NCBI GenBank assembly: GCA_903642325.1
Contig: CAHJWM010000037.1
Coordinates: forward strand, 1 to 49,086
Length of the DNA: 49,086 bases
Reading direction: 5' to 3'
From: Myxococcales bacterium
GTDB taxonomy: Bacteria; Myxococcota_A; Polyangia; Polyangiales; Polyangiaceae
The notes under the pieces: generated by a model
What the model saw: the letters and a program-made list of their open reading frames with translations, nothing else
Databases searched by the model: none
Told to the model about the DNA's origin: nothing
Made by a program: the position numbers and the translations under genes
Shown: piece after piece, positions 2,583-29,568 of the stretch
Layout: the number at the start of each line of letters is the position of its first letter
How positions within the stretch are numbered: the stretch's first letter is position 1

Positions 2583-4195
2583 GACGAATAGTCAGGCGGT
2601 CGCGGGCAGGATCAAGGCGGTCGGGTACGCGCGCGTCAGCACGCCCGAGCAGGCAGAAAAAGACCTCTCACTCCCGGCGCAGATGGCGAGCATTCGCCGC
2701 TACGCCCAGGACCGCGGCCTCGCGCTCGCGGGCGAGTTTGTCAAGCGAGGCGTCAGCGGGACCGACGACAACCGACCTGAGTTTCGTCGGATGCTCGAGG
2801 AGATTTATCGACCAAACTCCGAAGTCGGAATGGTCATCGTCACGCATGGCGCGCGCTTCATGCGCAACGCGACGAGGGCCCGCGTGCACAAGGAGCAGCT
2901 GCGCAGGCGTGGCATCCGCGTTCTGGCGATTCAGCAAACAGTGAGCGACGATCCGAACGGGCATTTTGCGGAGGGGATGTTCGAGTTGATTGATCAACTC
3001 GAAAGCGAAACCAATGGCGTGCGCACGCGCGCTGGGATGGCCGAAAACGCGCGCCAGGGCTACTTCAATGGCTCGAGACCGCCCTTCGGCTTTTGCGTCG
3101 AGAAGATTGCTACATCCGCCGGACCGAAGAACAAGCTCGTCATCGAGCCGGCAGAAGCAGAGCTCGTGCGCGAGGTCTTCCGTCAGTACCTGGCGGGCAG
3201 CGGCGCGAAATCCACCGCCCGCCACATGAACCAACGCGGCCTGCTCTGTCGCAAGCACCTCTGGACTCGCGATCTGGTGCTGAGGGTGATTAGCGATCCA
3301 GGCGTTGTCGGAACCTACAACTGGGGCCGGCTCGATTCCCGCGGCAATTGTATTCGGCCTGAAAGCGAATGGATCCCGATGGCAGTCGAGCGCATCGTGG
3401 ACGACGAGATTTTTCAAATGGTCCAAGAGCTGCGGCTCCCGCCGCGACCCAGGGCGCCCGCCATCGAGCCCGCTCTTCCTCGCGGGTCGGCTGCGCTGTT
3501 CGCGCTGCGGTGATACCTGCCAGCTCGAAAGCTCCGGCAAGCTCGATCCAGACGGTGAGCCCTATCGCTACTACAATTGCCGGCGCTTCTGTCGGAGCGG
3601 TAAGAAAGCTTGCGCGGGCTAGCGAATCTCGGTCGACACGCTAGATCGCGCGATCCTGAGCCATATCGCCGAGCACGTCTTCACCGCAGAGCGCTATCGG
3701 GAGATCCTGCGCGAATTCGTGGAAGACCAGGGCATTCTACGGCAAAAGACCGCCGAGCAACGACGGGTCCTCGAGCGAGAGAGAGACGAGCTCGGCAAGC
3801 GCCTCGAGCGCTGGTATGAGCGTATCGAAACGGATTCCGAGCTCGGTGACGTCGGCGCGGAGCGCCTCCGTGAGCTAAAGACCAAGCGCGACGAAGTCGT
3901 GCGTACGCTGGCCAAGCTGCGGCCCATGCACTCCGTGCCGCCGTATCTGTACAAGCCCGAGACCATCCAGCGCTTCCAGGTTCGGCTCCGCGAAGCGTTC
4001 CTTGGAGGTGACCGTGCAACCGCGCGCGTCTATCTGCAAAATCTCGTGGACCGCATCGTCGTCGGTGAAGACGAAATCATCATCGAAGCACGCGCGGGCG
4101 CAGCTCTCGCCATGATGTCTGCGTCAGGCACGACTCTTCCCGAAGCCGCCAAGGGAGAAGTTCTCGCAGACGTAGTAGATTGGCGCGCCCCGTAG
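2575..4195 (+). pseudogene. Large serine recombinase, frameshift plus in-frame stop
   Basis: Starts at GTG 2575. The resolvase catalytic domain carries VGYARVSTPEQ with the nucleophilic serine at about residue 22, followed by the recombinase domain (FNGSRPPFGFCVE, STARHMNQRGL). The frame closes at 3513. The zinc-ribbon region continues in the +1 frame (SSPLFLAGRLRCSRCGDTC, YYNCRRFCRSGKKACAG), so a frameshift lies near 3430-3475. That frame meets TAG at 3620-3622, then continues in the same frame as RISVDTLDRAILSHIAEHVF and a long coiled-coil segment to 4195. Full length would be about 535 residues, normal for integrase-type serine recombinases. With two breaks it is probably dead. Its final codons overlap the 3' end of the tRNA-Arg gene on the other strand. 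Confidence 0.85.
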
Positions 4196-8927: not shown

Positions 8928-8959
8928 AGCCTTACGGGGCTGTGGTATTGCAAGCGACG

Positions 8960-9958
8960 GTGATCGTCTCGCGCGCTCCAGTCCGATTTTCGCTTGGTGG
9001 CGGTGGCAGCGATTTGCCCAGCTACTATCAGAGCTACGGCGGCTTCGTGGTCAGCGCCGCGATCGATCATTACGTGTACGTCACGGCCAACCGTCGCTTT
9101 TATGACAGCATCCGCCTGGCCTACTCCGAGACCGAGATCACACCTGACGTCGACTCGATTCGCCATCCGATCTTCCGCGAGGCGTTGCGCATGGCCGGCA
9201 TCGAGCGCGGAATCGAGCTCACTAGTGTCGCAGACTTGCCGGCCAATAGCGGCCTCGGCTCATCGAGTAGCTTCACCGTCGCCCTGCTCAACGCCCTTTA
9301 TACTTACAAGCGGAACTTCGTCTCGTCCGCGCGCCTAGCCGAAGACGCCTGCACGCTGGAAATGCAGCGCCTAGCCGAGCCCGTCGGAAAACAGGACCAA
9401 TACATTGCCGCCTTCGGCAACGTCATTGCTCTCACCATCGAAACCGACGGCCGCGTGCAAGTCGAGCCCGTACCCGTTCGAGACGAGGTGCTGGACGAGC
9501 TTCAAAACAATCTACTGATCATGTACACCGGCATCGAACGCCCGGCGAAGAGCGTGCTGCGTGAACAAGGCGAGCGGCTCTCGAGCAATGATCCGGCGAG
9601 CCTTGCCGGCATGCACCGCATCAAGGCCCTGGGCCGCGACGTGTACGATTTGCTCGTGAAAGGAGACGTCGACCGTTACGGCGAGCTCTTGCACGAACAT
9701 TGGCAACACAAGCGGAAACTAGCCAGCACCATGAGCGACGAGCGCCTCGACGACTACTACGACGCCGCGCGCCGCTCGGGCGCCATCGGCGGCAAGCTGA
9801 TCGGCGCGGGCGGCGGGGGGTTCTTCATGCTCTACGTGCGGCCGGCGGAGAAGCGCGCGGTGCAAGACACCCTAATCGGGCGCGGTCTTCGTCCGCTTCG
9901 TTTCGACTTCGATCTGGACGGGGCGAAAATCGTTGCCAATCTGCACCGCGGCCGATGA
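8960..9958 (+). CDS. hddA: GHMP kinase, D-glycero-alpha-D-manno-heptose-7-phosphate kinase-like
   Basis: A 332-residue GHMP kinase. The N-terminus MIVSRAPVRFSLGGGGSDLP matches HddA-type kinases. The ATP loop is ADLPANSGLGSSSSFTVAL, and the C-terminal GHMP motif is KLIGAGGGGFFML. HddA puts the 1-phosphate on alpha-heptose 7-phosphate before GmhB removes the 7-phosphate. GTG 8960 gives the usual N-terminus; a longer GTG start at 8942 would leave only 14 bp to the divergent neighbour. GmhA-, GmhB- and HddC-like genes in the same locus support the heptose assignment over fucokinase-like alternatives. It stands alone on this strand. Confidence 0.85.
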   Translation: MIVSRAPVRFSLGGGGSDLPSYYQSYGGFVVSAAIDHYVYVTANRRFYDSIRLAYSETEITPDVDSIRHPIFREALRMAGIERGIELTSVADLPANSGLGSSSSFTVALLNALYTYKRNFVSSARLAEDACTLEMQRLAEPVGKQDQYIAAFGNVIALTIETDGRVQVEPVPVRDEVLDELQNNLLIMYTGIERPAKSVLREQGERLSSNDPASLAGMHRIKALGRDVYDLLVKGDVDRYGELLHEHWQHKRKLASTMSDERLDDYYDAARRSGAIGGKLIGAGGGGFFMLYVRPAEKRAVQDTLIGRGLRPLRFDFDLDGAKIVANLHRGR

Positions 9959-10574: not shown

Positions 10575-10708
10575 CGCTTCTACAGATAGCGCGGTTGCGG
10601 CAGAACAGGTGAGAGCATTAGGCTCGGGCGAGCTTGTACAAGCTCGATTCATCGCTCCGTCGCGCGTGCACTCGCCTCGCGACTCGTGGCAGAGCCGCGC
10701 ATCGTGGA

Positions 10709-12475
10709 GTGCGAGCCCCTGGCGGCAAGACCCGTGTAATTGCGCTTGCGGGCGCGGCCAGCCTGCTGCTCATCACTCTCCTGATGATCCTTGGGCCCAT
10801 GCTCTCGGACTTCCACACCTACGGCTTCCACGACTGGGATGTAGAAGCGGCGTATCGCTACATCACCGTCGTTAGCCTCAAGCAGTACCACGAGGGCCCT
10901 TGGTGGCATCCTTGGTTATGCGGTGGGTTCCCCGCGTTCGGTGATACCGAGACCGCGAGTAATTTTCTCTCTCCGTATCTGCCCCTTTACCTGCTCACCG
11001 ATCTGCGTGTGGCGATGCGATTAGAAGTGTTGGGCGGGGGCCTGACCGGCCTCGTCGGCACGTTCCTTTTAGCCCGACGCTTCAGCCGCAGCGCCGCGCT
11101 GTGCGCGCTCGTCGCCGCGCTGTATGTGCTGAACGGGCGCTGGGCATTGCAGGCCGCCGCCGGCCATACCTGGCATTTGCAGTATGGCCTCCTGCCCTGG
11201 GCCCTACTTTTTTACGAGCGCGCGCTCGAGCCGGGCCGCATTCAGAACGCGATTGGCACCGGCGTTGCCCTGGCTTGCATGGTGCTCTGGGGCGGCATCT
11301 ATCCGCTCCCGCAGTCGGCGGTGATCCTGAGTTGCTACGCGCTACTGCTTTGTGCTTTCACCCGCAGCGCGCGGCCCGCGCTTGCGCTCGCTGTGGCCGG
11401 CGCCGTCGCCATTGGCCTTGGGGCACCGAAGCTGTTTGCGATCCTCGATCACATGGATCGCGTGCCCCGCCTGATCGAATCACGCGAGGTGATCGGCATC
11501 GCGGAACTGCTGGTGATGTTCACCGCGCCCGATCAACATTTTGGCGTGCGACCCGTGCGCACGCCCGCTTACAACTGGCATGAATGGGGCATTTACATCG
11601 GCCCGTTGGGCGTCGCGCTGTTGGGCGTGGCCGTAGTTTTCGCGCGCGGCCAACGCGGCCAACCGCTCAAAATTATCGCGCTCTTATTGCTTTTACTCGG
11701 CTTTGGCGCGTTTCACGAAAGCGCACCGTGGTCAATCTTGCATCAGTTGCCCGTGTTCGCGTCCCAGCACGTCCCGTCACGCTGGCACTACCCGATGCTG
11801 CTCTTGTGGGGGCTCGCCTTCCTGACCGCCGTGGGGCCGTATGTCGATCGTTGGCTGGACCGATTCCCCGCTCTAGACCTTTGGCTATTGCTTCCGCTTG
11901 CGCTCTTTTGCATGGATATAGGGCGCGTTGCTCGGCAGCCGTTCGAGCAAGCGTTTTGGATGGAAAAACCCGAGCACATCCAGGCGCTGCCTTTGTTCGA
12001 GCACCACACGAACGGCTCCGTGAACTACCTCCGACGAGACTGGGCGCCGCCCATGTTGCTCTCGATGATGGCCAACACCGGAGTGATCGCCTGTTACGGG
12101 GTCGACCCGAGCTTCAAACCTGGCGCCGTCGCCGCCGATGCCCCGGGCTATCGCGGCCGCGTGTACGTCGAAGGCGCGGGGGCAGCCGAAATCAGCGACT
12201 GGTCACCGAACCATGCGCTCGTGCGCGTGGCGGGCGCGCAGGCGGGCTCGCTCGTCGTGTACAACATGAACTACGACCCGAGCTGGAGCGCGAACGGCGT
12301 TCCCGCTCTCGACTATCGAGGCCTCGTGGCGACGCGTCTAACGGGTGATGTCGCCCAGGTCGACTTCCGCTACTTTCCGCGCACCCTGCCTTATTCGCTG
12401 CTCCTGTTTTCATGCACGCTGTTCGGCGCGGCTTGGGGCCTGGGGCGAACGCGAGAACGCGTCAGCCCTACATAA
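10709..12475 (+). CDS. Polytopic membrane protein, GT-C/YfhO-like
   Basis: About 588 residues with ten or more hydrophobic segments. After the first helix comes FHTYGFHDWDVEAAYRYI, an outer loop rich in acidic residues as in GT-C enzymes, then PWWHPWLCGGFPAFGDTETA, a motif also seen in YfhO-like proteins. The last 150 residues are soluble and beta-rich (YRGRVYVEGAGAAEISDW), ending with one more helix. Family membership suggests transfer of a lipid-linked sugar at the outer face of the membrane. The frame is open to a TTG at 10634; GTG 10709 is chosen because the residues before it are arginine-rich and not conserved-looking. Start and specificity are both uncertain. Confidence 0.7.
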   Translation: MRAPGGKTRVIALAGAASLLLITLLMILGPMLSDFHTYGFHDWDVEAAYRYITVVSLKQYHEGPWWHPWLCGGFPAFGDTETASNFLSPYLPLYLLTDLRVAMRLEVLGGGLTGLVGTFLLARRFSRSAALCALVAALYVLNGRWALQAAAGHTWHLQYGLLPWALLFYERALEPGRIQNAIGTGVALACMVLWGGIYPLPQSAVILSCYALLLCAFTRSARPALALAVAGAVAIGLGAPKLFAILDHMDRVPRLIESREVIGIAELLVMFTAPDQHFGVRPVRTPAYNWHEWGIYIGPLGVALLGVAVVFARGQRGQPLKIIALLLLLLGFGAFHESAPWSILHQLPVFASQHVPSRWHYPMLLLWGLAFLTAVGPYVDRWLDRFPALDLWLLLPLALFCMDIGRVARQPFEQAFWMEKPEHIQALPLFEHHTNGSVNYLRRDWAPPMLLSMMANTGVIACYGVDPSFKPGAVAADAPGYRGRVYVEGAGAAEISDWSPNHALVRVAGAQAGSLVVYNMNYDPSWSANGVPALDYRGLVATRLTGDVAQVDFRYFPRTLPYSLLLFSCTLFGAAWGLGRTRERVSPT

Positions 12476-12544: not shown

Positions 12545-13402
12545 TCAGCGTGGCTTCGCGACAGACACGATTTGAAAACCGAGCAGCTCCGGCCAGACCC
12601 CGCAAAGACGCTGTTCATAGGGCTCGACCCAGCGCTCATAAGCTTTGAAAGCCGGTGAAGCGGCGAGCGACAAGTGATCGCCGCGGGCCACGTCGCCCTC
12701 GAAAAACCGACGCAATAAGGGCGCGGCCGACTGCACGAGGGCGGGCGTGCAGTCATCCGCCAGGACCTCGAAGCCCGCATAGCGAAGGGCCTCGCCCAGC
12801 GAGCGGCGCGTGAAGAAACGCACGTGGGTGCGGTCGTACAAGCCAGACCAGGCGTAAGCAAACTGCCCGGCCAGCGTGCGCAGTCGATTGTACCACACCG
12901 CGTAGTTCGGCACCGAGATCAGCAGCGTAGCTTGGCGCGTTTCCGGCGCTTGCGCGATGCTTCGCAGCATGCCGATCGGATCTACGATGTGTTCGAGCAC
13001 GTCGGAGAGCAACACGGCGTCGAAGAGGGCGTCAGTTGCGCCAAGCGCACCGGTTGCGCCAAGCGCGCCGGTTGCGCCAAGCGCGCCGGTTGCGCCAAGC
13101 GCGCCGCCTTTGCGATTCAAGAACGCGGCCAGTGTGCCCTCGAAGACCTCAGCGCACGCAGCGCCTGCCAACGCGGCCGCGTGTGCGTTGGGCTCGATGC
13201 CAATGACTTGGACTGCCGACGTGAGCTCGGCAATGCATCGCGCGTTGGCGCCCGCGCCGCAGCCAATGTCCAAGATGCGCGCGCGGGGTCGCTGCCTCAG
13301 CACATGCTCGTGCAAGAGCTCGATCAACACCCGGTTCGGTCGCTCGACGTAGGCGTAGCCGCTCGCCTCATAATCTAGGGGAAATCCAGCCTCACGGTGC
13401 AT
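12545..13402 (-). CDS. Class I SAM-dependent methyltransferase with internal 6-aa repeats
   Basis: A 285-residue methyltransferase. Motif I is ARILDIGCGAGANARCI, the acidic end of strand 2 is VQVIGIEPNAHAAAL, and the post-I region is DAVLLSDVLEHIVDP. This Methyltransf_11/23 style is common in glycan clusters, where such enzymes methylate sugars. Between strands 3 and 4 sits a run of GALGAT hexapeptides encoded by the 18-bp repeat at 13035-13106, inserted at a surface-loop position. The C-terminus contains YDRTHVRFFTRRSLGEALRY, seen in many sugar methyltransferases. It is divergent from the methyltransferase/GT2 fusion. Substrate unknown. Confidence 0.85.
   Translation of the reverse strand: MHREAGFPLDYEASGYAYVERPNRVLIELLHEHVLRQRPRARILDIGCGAGANARCIAELTSAVQVIGIEPNAHAAALAGAACAEVFEGTLAAFLNRKGGALGATGALGATGALGATGALGATDALFDAVLLSDVLEHIVDPIGMLRSIAQAPETRQATLLISVPNYAVWYNRLRTLAGQFAYAWSGLYDRTHVRFFTRRSLGEALRYAGFEVLADDCTPALVQSAAPLLRRFFEGDVARGDHLSLAASPAFKAYERWVEPYEQRLCGVWPELLGFQIVSVAKPR
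13035..13106 (+). repeat. 18-bp minisatellite, four units, in coding sequence
   Basis: Four head-to-tail copies of GTTGCGCCAAGCGCGCCG at 13035, 13053, 13071 and 13089. The first copy differs at one base (GCACCG). The unit is six codons long, so copy-number changes keep the methyltransferase frame and only lengthen a GALGAT loop. Confidence 0.95.
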
Positions 13403-13589: not shown

Positions 13590-15065
13590 GTGGCCCACTC
13601 GCCGATGCCCGTCCAGGAGCCCGCCGCACGATTGAACGCTGCGCTCGCCGCGCTGCTCGGCCGGCCGCGCACGGTGCTGGAGGTGGGCTGCGCGTCCGGC
13701 ATCCACGGCATGCTAGCGCGGCGTCGCGGAGCGCGCGTCACCGGCATCGAGCTGGACGCGGTGCTCGCGGCGCGCGCAAGCCGCGCGCTCGACGAAGTGC
13801 TCGCGCTCGACCCTGAAGATCGGGCGAGCGTCAGCGCCGCGCTCGGCGAGCGCCAGTTCGACCTCGTGCTCGTTCCGGATCTGTTGGACCGCGCCCGGGA
13901 CCCGGAGGGTCTGCTCGCCTTCTACGGCCAATTCGTAGGGGAGGAGGGGCGGCTCTTGGTCTCCTTGACCAATCGCGATGCTTGGCCCGTGCGTCTGCAC
14001 GCCGACCGCGCGAGCGCCGGCTATGTCACCGCCACCGGCGGCGTGCCCCGCCTGTTTTCCCGAGAGGAGGCGCTGCGCGCGGTACGGCGTTCGGGCCTCG
14101 AGCTGCTCGAGGTGAGCCTGAACCCCATGCTGCTCCGGGGTCTGCGCCTCCTTCTGGACGAGGACTTTTTCCTCACCCTGCGTCATGGCGAGAGCATGGA
14201 CACCGGCTTCCGCGATCTGACCGCGTACGAGGCATATCTCTTCGCGATCCGCCCGTTCGAGGTTGCGCTGGCTCGTTTGGCGCCGCGTTTGCTGGCCTTT
14301 CAACACGTGCTCGTCGCTCGCAAAACGCCCAAGCCGGGTCCACTCTCGCTCACCGTGGGCCTGCTCACCATGGACGAAGAGCCGAGCGTTGCCCGCATGA
14401 TGGACGAGGTGCGTCGGTACGCGCCGGACGCCAAAGTTTTGCTCGTTGACAGCTCGCTCAAGGATCAGACACCGGTCATCGCCGAGCGCATGGGCGCGCG
14501 CGTGCTGCGCCAACTTCCGCCGCGAGGCCACGGGCCCGCCATGGAGCTCTTGATGTACGAGGCGGCCCAGCAGAGTGATGCGCTGATCTACCTTGACTGC
14601 GACTTCACCTATCCCCCCCCCGTGCTGGTGGATATTCGGCGCATCTTGGAAAGCGGCGCCGACGTGGTGAACGCGGCGCGGGTCCGCCATCGCCCGGCCG
14701 CCATGCCGCTGCCCAACTATCTGGCCAATAAGACGTTCGTGCTCCTGGCGCAGCTTCTGAACGGGATGCCGGTCGCGGACTTGCACAGCGGCATGCGCGG
14801 TTATCGATCCTCGGTGATCCGGGCCTTCGACTTCGATGGTGAAGGAGACGCGCTGCCTATCGACACGGTGCTCTGGCCAGCGCGCTCTGGCTACCACGTG
14901 GTAGAAATTCCGATCGAGTATCAAGAACGCATCGGCGCCTCGAAGCTGCGAAAAATTTCGGGCACGGTCTGGACCTTCATCCGCCTCGCCAGCACGCTGC
15001 GCGTGGGGGCGCGCGGCGGTGAGAGCTACGACAGTTGGCCCGGCGTCGACGGTCGGCGCCCATGA
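13590..15065 (+). CDS. Methyltransferase-GT2 fusion (polyprenyl-phosphate sugar synthase-like)
   Basis: A 491-residue two-domain protein. Residues 1-240 form a class I methyltransferase (TVLEVGCASGIHGMLARR, then GARVTGIELDA, FDLVLVPDLLDRARDPEG). Residues 255-480 form a GT2 domain of the dolichol/undecaprenyl-phosphate mannosyltransferase type: SLTVGLLTMDEEPSVARMM, a DxD-like ALIYLDCDFTYPPP, LHSGMRGYRSSVIRAF, and ERIGASKLRKISG near the end. There is no membrane segment at the C-terminus, as in single-domain DPM1 enzymes. The GT2 part would load a sugar onto a lipid carrier for the GT-C enzymes nearby. Its stop overlaps the gmhB start (ATGA). A second ATG lies at 13605. Confidence 0.85.
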   Translation: MAHSPMPVQEPAARLNAALAALLGRPRTVLEVGCASGIHGMLARRRGARVTGIELDAVLAARASRALDEVLALDPEDRASVSAALGERQFDLVLVPDLLDRARDPEGLLAFYGQFVGEEGRLLVSLTNRDAWPVRLHADRASAGYVTATGGVPRLFSREEALRAVRRSGLELLEVSLNPMLLRGLRLLLDEDFFLTLRHGESMDTGFRDLTAYEAYLFAIRPFEVALARLAPRLLAFQHVLVARKTPKPGPLSLTVGLLTMDEEPSVARMMDEVRRYAPDAKVLLVDSSLKDQTPVIAERMGARVLRQLPPRGHGPAMELLMYEAAQQSDALIYLDCDFTYPPPVLVDIRRILESGADVVNAARVRHRPAAMPLPNYLANKTFVLLAQLLNGMPVADLHSGMRGYRSSVIRAFDFDGEGDALPIDTVLWPARSGYHVVEIPIEYQERIGASKLRKISGTVWTFIRLASTLRVGARGGESYDSWPGVDGRRP

Positions 15066-15694
15066 GCGCTATGGCCGCGCGCCCCGGTGCAATCCTCGAT
15101 CGGGACGGCACGCTGATCGACGTCGTGCGCGACGAGGAAACTGGCACCGTGCAGGTCGCGTTCCACCCGAGCCAGCTCCGACTTTTGCCCGGCGTGGTCG
15201 AGGGCCTGCACTTGCTCGCGGCCGCAGGTTACGGCTTGGCGATCGCAACGAATCAGCCCGGGCCGGCCAAGGGCCAAGTTTCGCTGGCCGCGGTCGAACG
15301 CACCAATAGCGCCTTGCTCGGCCTGCTCGCCGCCGAAGGCATCGAGATCGCGGCCCTCGAGGTGTGCCTGCATCACCCGAGCGGCGGCCCTGGCGGCGAC
15401 GCTCGCTGGGTAACGGAGTGCGCCTGCCGCAAACCAAAGCCCGGGCTGCTCTTTAGGGCAATCGAGCACGCCGGCCTGGACGCGACTCGCACCTGGATGA
15501 TCGGTGACTCGGCGGCCGACGTCGGCGCCGCGCGCGCCGCGCACGTGCGCTCGGCCCTCGTCTTTCTCGAAGAGCGTTGCGAGATATGCCCCCTCCGCGA
15601 CGGCCCACTGGTTCGCCCCGATCTGCGCGCGCCACGCTTCGATCAGCTAGTCGCCGCGATCTTGCAAACACCCCACATGAATTGTTCTGGATAA
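15062..15694 (+). CDS. gmhB: D-glycero-D-manno-heptose 1,7-bisphosphate 7-phosphatase
   Basis: A 210-residue HAD-family phosphatase of histidinol-phosphatase/GmhB type. The catalytic motif AILDRDGTLIDVV holds the nucleophile and acid/base aspartates, ATNQPG is motif II, and the zinc loop CLHHPSGGPGG with ECACRKPKPG is typical of GmhB. WMIGDSAADVGAARAA is motif IV. It removes the 7-phosphate from heptose 1,7-bisphosphate between the HddA-like kinase and the HddC-like nucleotidyltransferase. The start ATG overlaps the stop of the upstream fusion gene, and the beta-lactamase gene starts one nucleotide after its stop, so the three are probably one transcript. Confidence 0.9.
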   Translation: MSAMAARPGAILDRDGTLIDVVRDEETGTVQVAFHPSQLRLLPGVVEGLHLLAAAGYGLAIATNQPGPAKGQVSLAAVERTNSALLGLLAAEGIEIAALEVCLHHPSGGPGGDARWVTECACRKPKPGLLFRAIEHAGLDATRTWMIGDSAADVGAARAAHVRSALVFLEERCEICPLRDGPLVRPDLRAPRFDQLVAAILQTPHMNCSG

Positions 15695-15695
15695 A

Positions 15696-16619
15696 ATGTC
15701 CTTCAGGTACGATCTCGATAAGCGTACGTTGCTGCGCGGCATCGCGGCGCTTCCACTTTCGACCCTAACATCCTGCGCGAGCGCGCCGGCACCATCGGCA
15801 GCCTCCATTACGCTCCGCTCGCGTTCCGCTACGGCCCGGCTGCTTCACGTGGAGCAAACCATCGGCGGTCGATTGGGCGTAGCGGCGCTCGATACGGAAA
15901 GCGGCGCACGTCTCGAGCTTCGTGGCGACGAGCGCTTTGCGATGTGCAGCACGTTCAAGGTCGCGCTGGTGGCCGCAGTGCTAACGCGGGTCGACCACGG
16001 ACAGGAACAGCTCGCGCGACGCATTGCTTACGGCGAAAACGTCTTGCTCGAATGGGCCCCCGTAACGCGCGAGCACGTCGCGGAAGGCGAGCTCAGCGTC
16101 GAGGCGCTGTGTGCCGCCGCCATCAGCCACAGCGACAACACGGCCGCTAACCTGCTGCTCGCCACCCTGGGCGGGCCGCCAGGTTTAACCCACTATATGC
16201 GCAGCTTGCACGATCAGACCTCGCGTCTGGATCGCAACGAGCCCACGCTCAACACGGCGCTACCGGGCGACGAGCGCGACACCACCACGCCGAACGCCAT
16301 GCTCGGAAATCTTCGCCAGCTGCTGGTTGGAGAAGAGGCGCTCGGCGAAACGAGCCGGGCGCGGCTGTGTCAGTGGCTGATCGCGACCAAAACTGGGGAA
16401 CAGCGCTTACGCGCGGGCTTACCGCGCGACTGTCGCGCCGGTGACAAGACCGGCACGGGGGAGCGAGGCGCCTTCTGCGACCTCTTGATCGCGTGGCCGC
16501 CCGCGCGACGGCCGCTGCTGATTGCGGCCTACGCGATGGGCTCGCGAGGTTCGACGGAGGAGCTGAATGCAGCCTTCGCGGAGACGGCGCGCATCGTCGT
16601 TTCGGAGTTGGAGCGATGA
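15696..16619 (+). CDS. Class A beta-lactamase, putative lipoprotein
   Basis: A 307-residue serine beta-lactamase with every core motif. S85-x-x-K is in FAMCSTFKVAL (Ambler 70), SDN is in ISHSDNTAA (S146, Ambler 130), Glu182 is in NEPTLN (Ambler 166), and KTG is in GDKTGTGERG (K251, Ambler 234). By my alignment arginine sits at Ambler 220 (QRLRAGLP) and not at 244, a pattern known in several class A branches. The N-terminus has KRTLLRG, a hydrophobic run and LTSC, suggesting a Tat-like lipoprotein signal. It acts in the periplasm by hydrolysing beta-lactams. It starts 1 nt after the gmhB stop. Confidence 0.93.
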   Translation: MSFRYDLDKRTLLRGIAALPLSTLTSCASAPAPSAASITLRSRSATARLLHVEQTIGGRLGVAALDTESGARLELRGDERFAMCSTFKVALVAAVLTRVDHGQEQLARRIAYGENVLLEWAPVTREHVAEGELSVEALCAAAISHSDNTAANLLLATLGGPPGLTHYMRSLHDQTSRLDRNEPTLNTALPGDERDTTTPNAMLGNLRQLLVGEEALGETSRARLCQWLIATKTGEQRLRAGLPRDCRAGDKTGTGERGAFCDLLIAWPPARRPLLIAAYAMGSRGSTEELNAAFAETARIVVSELER

Positions 16620-23772: not shown

Positions 23773-24768
23773 TCAGCCGCCTAGATAAGACATCTCGAGC
23801 CGGCGCACGCTCTTGCCGAGCGAGCGCAGCTCCGAGTAGCGATCGCCTCGCGCGCTCCAAAAGCTCGTCACCGCCGCCCCCACATCAGCCCCTGCGCGCA
23901 CGAGCGCGCGCAAATCCTGGCCCTCGCGGGCGAAAAGGCAGCCGAAGATCTGGCCGTCCGCGCTCAGTCGCAAGCGCGCGCAGTCGCCACAAAAAGGTTG
24001 GGTTACGCTGCTGATCACCCCGACCTCACCGCTGCCGTCTTGGTAGCGATAGCGCTTGGCGACCTCCCCGCGATAGTTCGGCACGAGGGGCACGACGGGC
24101 ATTTCCGCGTCGATGCGCGCGATGATCTCTTGGCCGCTCACCACATGCTCCATGCGCCAACCGTTGCTCAGCCCCACATCCATGTACTCGATGAAGCGCA
24201 CGATGTGGCCGCTGCCTTTGAAATGCCGAGCCAGTTCGACCAAGGTGTGATCATTGACGCCGCGGCGAACCACGGCGTTGATTTTCAGCGGCGGAAAGCC
24301 CGCCGCCCGCGCCGCCTCGATGCCCGCCAACACATCGCGCACTGGCAGCTCGGAATCAGTCATGCGCGCAAATACCTCGGGCGACACCGAGTCCAAGCTG
24401 ACCGTGATCCGGTCCAAGCCGGCGTCGCGCAGCGCGTGCGCGTGCTTGCTCAATAAGGATCCGTTCGTGGTCAACGCGAGCTCCAGCTCCGGAAAGCCCC
24501 GCAGCATTCGAACGAGTCTCGGCAGCTCACTGCGCAGCAACGGTTCGCCGCCCGTCAGGCGCACCTTGCGCAGCCCGAGAGGCAACAGTGCGCTTACCAC
24601 GTGCGCGATTTCCTCGAAGCTCAGGATGTCGGTCCGCGGCAAATAGCGATGCTCTTGACCGAAGTGCTCGCGCGGCATGCAATAACGACAGCGGAAGTTA
24701 CAGCGGTCCGTGACGCTCACCCGCAGGTCGGCGAGGGGCCTACCGAGCTGGTCGCGTGCGGGGAACAT
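23773..24768 (-). CDS. moaA: GTP 3',8-cyclase MoaA
   Basis: A 331-residue radical SAM enzyme for the first step of molybdenum-cofactor synthesis, converting GTP to 3',8-cyclo-7,8-dihydro-GTP. The N-terminal cluster motif is TDRCNFRCRYCMP (CxxxCxxC). KVRLTGGEPLLRSELP is the SAM-binding GGEP. The C-terminal cluster motif is FCGDCARLRLSADGQIFGCL, and the protein ends in the Gly-Gly tail needed for activity (SYLGG). ATG 24768 is chosen because the longer form would use TTG. It is divergent from moaC across about 76 bp, which must hold both promoters. Confidence 0.97.
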   Translation of the reverse strand: MFPARDQLGRPLADLRVSVTDRCNFRCRYCMPREHFGQEHRYLPRTDILSFEEIAHVVSALLPLGLRKVRLTGGEPLLRSELPRLVRMLRGFPELELALTTNGSLLSKHAHALRDAGLDRITVSLDSVSPEVFARMTDSELPVRDVLAGIEAARAAGFPPLKINAVVRRGVNDHTLVELARHFKGSGHIVRFIEYMDVGLSNGWRMEHVVSGQEIIARIDAEMPVVPLVPNYRGEVAKRYRYQDGSGEVGVISSVTQPFCGDCARLRLSADGQIFGCLFAREGQDLRALVRAGADVGAAVTSFWSARGDRYSELRSLGKSVRRLEMSYLGG

Positions 24769-24844
24769 GTGCAACGGTGTAGCATCGCTGGCCCACGCCG
24801 CATCGCTGCCGCGCAGGATCCAAACAACTGCTATCGTTACGAGC

Positions 24845-25726
24845 GTGAAACTCTACTCCTTCGACGGGGTCGACGCGGCCCTCGACCTCGTGCCGTTGGC
24901 GGCGCGCCGCGCCCTGGATCTGAGCGGGCTCAAAATCTCGCTCGAAACCTGGCGAAACCTGGCGCTCCCGGAGCGCCGGGCTTTGGTCGAAGTCGGCGCG
25001 GAGTGGTCAGTCGACTCGCAGCGGGTGAGTAGTCTGTTAGCGACCACTCCGGCCGCTCGCGTCGAGCCCGTGGCCGAGCTCGGCACCGCGACCATTCCCG
25101 TCGAGGTAGCGCGGGCATTCGGGGCGGCTCTGCCCATTTCTTCAGCCGTTTGGCAGTCGCTCTCACCGCTCGACCGATACGCTTTGTGGAAAGTGGCCAG
25201 CCGGGGCAAGCCAGACCGAATCATCGCCGCGCACGCCGAGATCGTGGGGCACAGCTCCCTTTCCACGCACGTTTCGCCAGCAGGCGGAGCGCGCATGGTC
25301 GATGTTTCGCAAAAGCCGGCATCTCATCGGCGCGCGGTGGCGGAGACACGTGTGACCCTAAGCGCAGACGCCTTCGCGCGCGTCAAGAGCGCCACAGTGC
25401 CCAAAGGGGATGTGCTCGGCACGGCGCGTCTCGCGGGGATCATGGCCGCCAAACGCACGTCGGAGCTGATTCCGCTCTGCCATCCGCTTTCGCTGACGAA
25501 GGTCGAGGTGTCGCTCGAGCTCGACGACGGCGCGAGTGCCATCGCCGTGCGTGGCATCGTGGAAGCATTCGATCGCACCGGCGTCGAGATGGAGGCCTTG
25601 ACCGCGGTCTCCGTGGCGGCGCTCACCGTCTATGACATGCTGAAAGGCATCGACCGCGCGATGGAGATCGGGCCCACGCGGTTATTGACCAAAAGCGGCG
25701 GGCGCACGGGAGATTTCTCGCGATGA
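24845..25726 (+). CDS. moaC: Fusion: nitrate-reductase-associated-like domain plus MoaC
   Basis: A 293-residue protein from GTG 24845. Residues 150-293 are MoaC, cyclic pyranopterin monophosphate synthase: [53 protein letters not shown] and [19 protein letters not shown], all intact. Residues 1-140 ([59 protein letters not shown]) resemble small nitrate-reductase-associated proteins often encoded beside assimilatory nitrate reductase. A normal MoaC is about 160 residues, so this is a domain fusion. MoaC turns the MoaA product into cPMP. The stop overlaps the moaE start (ATGA). Confidence 0.9.
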
Positions 25727-28152: not shown

Positions 28153-29568
28153 ATGATCTCCAACATGAAGCGCGTTGCAGGATCGACCATGCTCCTCGGC
28201 TTGGTCTTCATGGTGGCTAGCCGCCCGGCCTTCGCGCAAGACGGCACGAGCGATACCTGGTTCGAGGAGCCCAGCTCTGCGGATTCGCAAGCCGCGGCTC
28301 CGCCGGAGCTGCCCGTCGCCGGCCCGGACGGCGCGGCCCTGCCCACGTCGTCGTCGCCCTCTGCTTCGCCCGGACCATCCCCCGTGAGCGCTCCTGCGCC
28401 CGGCGCGGAACAAGGGCCGGAAGATAACAGCGCCGAGACGGATCCGCGCGCCATCACTGAATTCCGCCCCACCCTCGACCCGTACGGCAGCTGGGTCGAC
28501 GACGCTAAGTACGGCACGGTCTGGGTTCCCAACCGCGACGCGGTCGGGGAGGACTTCGCTCCCTACGTAAGTGCCGGCCATTGGTCGCTGAGCGAGGACA
28601 ACGACTGGGTGTGGCAGAGCGACTACCCGTTCGGCAATGTCGTGTTTCATTACGGGCGTTGGGTCTGGATCCCAGGCACGGGCTGGAGCTGGGTCGCAGG
28701 GCGTCGTTATGCGAACGCCTGGGTCACTTGGCGCGTGCCCACTGACGATTACGGCTATGTGGGCTGGGCACCCATGCCGCCGGCTTGGGGCTGGTATGGC
28801 GGATCTGCGGTTTCGCTTTCTTGGTATCCGCCTGCGGCCTACGTGTTCTGCCCGAGCGGTTACGCGTTCTCGTACCGCGTGCATTCATACATCGTGCACG
28901 ACCGTTATATGGTGCGCGACGTCGCAGCGCACACGCGCAATTACTCGGACCGCGAGCGCGGCGGCATGCAGCACGCTGCCGCTGCGCCCCGCGTTCTGCC
29001 CGCTAATTCGGCCCCGCCGCGCGGGCCCAGCCTGCAATACGCCCACGTCCCGCCGTCCATGGCGCCAGCAAGTCGGCTTCCGATTCGCTCGGCCTCCGCA
29101 GGCTCGCGGTTAGCCGGCGACGCAGCATTCCGCAATAACGCCGGGCTCCGCACGCCAACGCCTTACTCCGGCTCGCAGGGAGTCCGCGGCTGGTCAACAA
29201 GCAGCTACCGCGCCGCCTCAGCCAACGGCTCGGACCCAATCCGGCGACCGCTCTCTTCAGCGCCGTCGAGCACCTACCGGCCCCCAGTGCGCATGTCGTC
29301 CGCGCCGAGCGTGTCACGTTACGACGCTTCATCCGCCGCGCCGCTCCGCGTTCCTGCGCGCAGCTACACCGCGCCCTCACCATCGTATTCTGCACCGCAA
29401 TCGTATTCTGCGCCCGCCTTCCGTTCATCTTCCGCCACTCACTACTCGGCCCCCGCCATCCACTACTCGGCTCCCGCCATCCACTACTCGGCTCCCGCCA
29501 CTCACTACTCGGCTCCCGCGTTCAACTCCGGCTCCGCCCACTCGTTTCACGCTCCATCGAGGCGCTGA
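28153..29568 (+). CDS. Secreted DUF6600-like protein with C-terminal tandem repeats
   Basis: A 471-residue exported protein. GAGGAAG precedes the ATG by 6 nt. Signal peptide is MKRVAGSTMLLGLVFMVASR and PAFAQ with an AxA cleavage site. After a Pro/Ser/Ala linker (residues 40-105) comes a Trp/Tyr/Gly-rich domain: LDPYGSWVDDAKYGTVWVP, GRWVWIPGTGWSWVAGRRYA and DDYGYVGWAPMPPAWGWYGG, as in DUF6600 proteins. The last 180 residues are low-complexity Ser/Ala/Pro/Tyr ending in HYSAPA repeats. Probably an envelope or extracellular structural protein; function unknown. A lipoprotein gene follows after 2 bp, so the two form an operon. Confidence 0.8.
   Translation: MISNMKRVAGSTMLLGLVFMVASRPAFAQDGTSDTWFEEPSSADSQAAAPPELPVAGPDGAALPTSSSPSASPGPSPVSAPAPGAEQGPEDNSAETDPRAITEFRPTLDPYGSWVDDAKYGTVWVPNRDAVGEDFAPYVSAGHWSLSEDNDWVWQSDYPFGNVVFHYGRWVWIPGTGWSWVAGRRYANAWVTWRVPTDDYGYVGWAPMPPAWGWYGGSAVSLSWYPPAAYVFCPSGYAFSYRVHSYIVHDRYMVRDVAAHTRNYSDRERGGMQHAAAAPRVLPANSAPPRGPSLQYAHVPPSMAPASRLPIRSASAGSRLAGDAAFRNNAGLRTPTPYSGSQGVRGWSTSSYRAASANGSDPIRRPLSSAPSSTYRPPVRMSSAPSVSRYDASSAAPLRVPARSYTAPSPSYSAPQSYSAPAFRSSSATHYSAPAIHYSAPAIHYSAPATHYSAPAFNSGSAHSFHAPSRR
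29440..29520 (+). repeat. 21-bp tandem repeat, four units (last one partial)
   Basis: Units start at 29440, 29461, 29482 and 29503 and read CACTACTCGGCTCCCGCCAT plus one base, encoding HYSAPAI/T. A related 18-bp unit, TCGTATTCTGCRCCGSMA-like, sits just upstream at about 29383-29418 and encodes SYSAPQ/A. Expansion stays in frame. Confidence 0.9.

Follow-up and report, generated by a model that had tools for sequence, protein, structure and literature searches.

An in-frame 18-bp minisatellite is located inside the catalytic domain of a methyltransferase gene in the 49,086-nucleotide stretch of Myxococcales DNA analyzed here (the window). It probably arose by a recent expansion private to this lineage, through slippage (or unequal recombination), at a loop of the enzyme that tolerates added residues, and is most likely neutral or nearly so. 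The array and its host gene are located as follows:

13035–13106, minus strand (coding strand of the host gene): 18-bp tandem array, 4.0 copies (Tandem Repeats Finder, TRF)
12545–13402, minus strand: class I SAM-dependent methyltransferase of 285 aa, host of the array (PF13489)

TRF described the array with a period of 18, 98% matches, no indels and a score of 137. In codon phase it occupies positions 13034–13105 and encodes (GALGAT)x4, residues 100–123 of the methyltransferase. The unit in coding phase on the minus strand is GGCGCGCTTGGCGCAACC; the first three copies are identical, and the fourth differs from them by two silent changes. As in other in-frame coding minisatellites, the units are arranged head to tail, their period is a multiple of three and the 285-aa frame remains open throughout. 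Both TRF and the translation agree with the initial annotation of this DNA, which had read four nearly identical in-frame 18-bp units coding for GALGAT. Since the best TRF score among 1000 codon shuffles of the host gene was only 52, vs 137 for the real array, a chance origin can be excluded. The near-identity of the units suggests that the expansion was recent.

Short-read assembly could instead have produced a false copy number, or even the whole array. The genome is a draft in 140 contigs, and several of the arrays sampled elsewhere in it are located at contig starts, as expected if repeats break assemblies. We regard this explanation as improbable, given that 72 bp fits into an ordinary short read, that the end unit carries two silent changes and that the reading frame of the gene runs on into the sequence on either side of the array. 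The true copy number may be larger than four.

With at most one mismatch, the four copies of the array are the only ones in this genome. When up to three mismatches were allowed, the whole genome gave 82 matches (34 + 48), four of them in the array and 78 outside it, vs 66 (30 + 36) in the reversed control; a pair of such units was found in one of the 108 family genomes, the present one. With no copies elsewhere above the control and the pair confined to a single genome, an origin from a dispersed repeat or mobile element was rejected. Of the 18 bases that follow the array, just 10 agree with the unit, which points only weakly to a first-unit template. When the tripled unit was compared with the rest of the gene by exact, ungapped matching, the longest match on the same strand was 7 bases (300 codon shuffles gave 6–12, mostly 7–9), so that copying of the unit from the codons of the glycine-rich motif I is unsupported; on the other strand it was 9 bases, the shuffles referring to the same strand only. 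A DNA hairpin promoting slippage was likewise unsupported, the fold of the array as single-stranded DNA having a z-score of -0.60 and 54 of 200 shuffles folding equally well.

The host ORF matches Methyltransf_23 (PF13489) with an E-value of 7.3e-22 over residues 22–214 (78.3 bits vs a curated cut-off of 27), and the array therefore falls inside this domain. The protein contains the sequences DIGCGAGANA and GIEPN, largely conserved in the alignments, which we take to be the glycine-rich motif I and the acidic end of strand 2, respectively. Eight NCBIfam models matched it at E ≤ 1e-3, none of the eight reaching its cut-off. Both the top sequence-profile match (E 3.8e-41) and the first-ranked fold match (E 1.8e-15) were 3cc8, a putative class I SAM methyltransferase from Bacillus cereus, the nearest solved structure on both counts; in the profile alignment, a sequence alignment only, 3cc8 has a short stretch before FD and no repeat.

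The enzyme looks intact, since it keeps 84 of the 89 columns that are invariant in the other 11 orthologues. Its five differences fall within the range of 0 to 6 counted in the same way for each other orthologue row, and gene decay was therefore rejected. The tip branch of the host protein (0.7) is also within the range of the others (0.02–0.86), in a tree in which its placement is weak.

Orthologues were searched for in 108 family genomes (this one and 107 others) at E ≤ 1e-40, with up to 22 candidates scored per genome, so that some may be missed. At least 12 of the 108 genomes, this one and 11 others, contained a match. None of the seven other genomes of the same genus had one among its best 22 candidates; weaker methyltransferase matches were found in five of these seven (best 3.3e-16). 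A scan of named genome contigs revealed 22 relatives, of which five are close (L059–L063, 50–57% identity), with the labels Myxococcales, Polyangiaceae or delta proteobacterium. These five duplicate five of the 11 orthologues, with which they agree in identity, bit score and aligned sequence, and the 16 other rows of our alignment accordingly represent 11 distinct orthologues. The nearest orthologues are 50–58% identical over the best aligned segment. At the level of the phylum, at least 10 of 377 genomes, this one included, gave a match at E ≤ 1e-35 when the best six candidates per genome were scored. Among these candidates, the only match outside the family was in G314 (L146), 44% identical over residues 127–281, a range that does not cover the array.

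The repeat is absent from all 11 distinct orthologues. The alignment gap at the array comprises 24 residues in nine of them, 23 in L003 and 22 in L058, and this 24-residue excess over nine of the 11 means that about all four units (72 bp) are extra, which speaks against pure duplication, under which one template copy would be expected. Similarly, the span from GIE to DVLEH/DVVEH is 71 aa in the host protein vs 47 in eight orthologues, 48 in one and 49 in one. This pattern caught 10 of the 11 orthologues, missing L053, whose alignment gap is 24 residues, and its scan gave no row for G314 (L146). A GATGAT-type stretch in G026 (L141) that matches residues 100–125 belongs to a 184-aa frame that is not methyltransferase-like by eye, and it was discarded. 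Judging from the sequences compared, the array is apparently private to this genome within the family. The near-identical units and their absence from every distinct orthologue are consistent with slippage as the likely origin, the process initially invoked for changes in loop length; the pattern named at that time as refuting the initial interpretation, the same copy number in all relatives together with synonymous divergence of the units, is not what we found.

In an AlphaFold2 model of the host protein, obtained in one job from a shallow alignment of 13 rows (mean pLDDT 79, pTM 0.81), a coil at residues 97–128 is located between a helix (91–96) and a strand (129–133). This prediction fits the earlier placement of the array in a loop of the catalytic domain. 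Residues 100–119 have a pLDDT below 50, and the repeat loop is probably disordered according to the model. In the class I fold, loops leading from helix to strand sit opposite the SAM pocket. By this topology, the repeat loop is probably located away from the pocket and exposed to solvent.

According to the scenario that we favor, replication slippage or unequal recombination would have expanded the 18-bp unit in the part of the gene that codes for the helix C–strand 4 loop of the class I methyltransferase, each unit adding six flexible residues (GALGAT) without breaking the frame or the fold. Such an array would be tolerated because 18 is a multiple of three and the loop is probably exposed and away from the SAM pocket. 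We infer the slippage, the recency, the position opposite the active site and the neutrality of the array; the first two are read from unit identity alone, because the searches turned up the gene in no close relative.

The following genes, with their identities in L142 (the locus around orthologue L058, which keeps all four of them), are located near the host gene:

8942–9958, plus strand: GHMP kinase resembling HddA (below the NCBIfam cut-off); 72%
10634–12475, plus strand: 613-aa protein without Pfam match, membrane protein by eye; 53%
13590–15065, plus strand: fusion of a methyltransferase and a family 2 glycosyltransferase, divergent from the host gene (same divergent pair in L142); 62%
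15035–15694, plus strand: HAD phosphatase, histidinol-phosphatase domain subfamily (above cut-off), GmhB-like (below cut-off); 68%

In three more distinct loci (L059/L053, L060 and L051), the HAD gene (63–66% identity) adjoins the orthologue, and a fusion-type gene (45%) adjoins orthologue L062; in the remaining orthologue loci, most of which hold little flanking sequence, neither of the two was seen. Together with the neighborhood kept in L142, the adjoining HAD gene of those three loci supports orthology. The neighbors resemble HddA, GmhB, sugar nucleotidyltransferases and glycosyltransferases, with the NCBIfam matches to HddA, GmhB and the nucleotidyltransferase being below their cut-offs. 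Since these neighbors are of sugar type, a carbohydrate setting of the gene is plausible. The host had previously been called a surface-glycan gene, a description that the neighbors make plausible.

The glycosyltransferase part of the fusion resembles dolichyl-phosphate hexose transferase (below cut-off), and similar methyltransferase–glycosyltransferase fusions were noticed by eye in other family genomes. Directly after the HAD phosphatase gene, a class A beta-lactamase gene is located at 15696–16619 (NF033103, 304.7 bits vs a cut-off of 200). A single ORF at 24710–25726 contains a NarM-like match (residues 57–170, below cut-off) and a MoaC match (residues 186–337, above cut-off), and is possibly a fusion.

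A functional alternative is that the array is a contingency-type site, at which frequent changes of copy number between strains would affect how active or stable the methyltransferase is, or how it binds partners, and in this way vary a surface glycan. We consider this unlikely. Near-identical units in an in-frame array inside an enzyme domain, together with carbohydrate-type neighbor genes, would fit such a site, but the loop is predicted to be disordered and by topology probably lies away from the SAM site, all 11 orthologues lack the array, and four 18-bp copies are short for a hypervariable site. The tuning role proposed initially is not supported, given the same predicted disorder and probable distance from the SAM pocket, and the lack of conservation of the loop. 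On/off switching by frameshift is not expected, because 18-bp steps keep the frame. Copy-number variation between strains is plausible. There is only a slim chance that the gene encodes a sugar or glycan methyltransferase whose disordered loop varies in length through an unstable 18-bp array, with graded, frame-preserving variation between sister cells. If it were true that the copy number varies and matters, this would be a case of graded, non-frameshifting variation of a glycan enzyme.

The omega loop of PenA, a class A beta-lactamase, borders the active site. A precedent for the contingency reading comes from this loop: de novo repeats selected with a drug, with a measured change of function, are reported there, and the duplications change the substrate range and revert (PMC4169377). 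In both enzymes an in-frame duplication lengthens a loop of a folded protein. PenA has two units and an altered function, whereas the methyltransferase has four units, no known phenotype and a loop that is probably away from the SAM pocket.

To place the array in its genomic context, we sampled 60 stretches of this genome (1.2 Mb, contigs C1–C34 of 140), many of which begin at a contig start. In total, TRF found 103 non-overlapping arrays in this sample, and the period was a multiple of three in 76 of the 95 arrays with a period of at least 9. Eleven were comparable with the methyltransferase array, having a period of 15–24 that is a multiple of three, no fewer than three copies and 88% matches or more; this set leaves out other unit lengths (e.g., 27 bp in L133, 81 bp in L103 and 9 bp in L112). 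Pfam domains (E ≤ 1e-3) occur in seven of these hosts, and the other four have no Pfam match, the L111 host being read as the SSB frame and not as the longest open frame. None of the seven arrays lies inside an above-cut-off Pfam domain of its host; one overlaps a sub-cut-off collagen match, and one starts six residues past a trypsin domain. By eye, several of the comparable arrays are located in Gly/Ser-rich stretches of lipoprotein-like proteins. Thus, in-frame minisatellites are not rare in this genome, and the methyltransferase array is mildly unusual in its position within a catalytic domain, since none of the seven comparable arrays overlaps an above-cut-off Pfam domain of its host.

This position is what could be cited for an adaptive gain, in which the insert would serve this lineage, e.g., as a flexible segment for binding a partner protein or the membrane. 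We find it very improbable: the insert is a low-complexity stretch of Gly, Ala, Leu and Thr, is predicted to be disordered and was seen in no orthologue found. A recent expansion in a permissive loop remains our preferred explanation. The array is ordinary in kind, and its small point of interest is its position inside an enzyme domain. In Bacillus, coding tandem repeats are described that have a period that is a multiple of three, encode an amino-acid repeat and are present in some gene copies only (PMC8161180). The present array resembles them in the unit length, the amino-acid repeat and the presence or absence between gene copies; unlike them, it was seen in only one gene, in one genome, and lies inside a catalytic domain. 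None of the titles and abstract openings in the literature searched deals with this array or with minisatellites in myxobacterial methyltransferases. The array neatly illustrates the growth of a minisatellite within a folded enzyme domain, at a seemingly tolerant loop, and it might serve to mark strains of this lineage.

Other in-frame arrays were also noticed. The second one of the window, at 29432–29519 (21 bp x 4.2), encodes by eye a HYSAPAI/HYSAPAT repeat close to the C-terminal end of a protein of 471 aa, outside its DUF6600 domain (residues 107–210). In L081, a sulfatase ORF contains a collagen-like 18-bp array of the GADGKD type (14684–14793) between the N-terminus and the sulfatase domain. 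In L103, two in-frame arrays at 3127–3567, 33 bp x 3.6 (76% matches) and 81 bp x 3.0 (98%), are located in a Lys/Glu/Ala-rich open frame of 711 codons.
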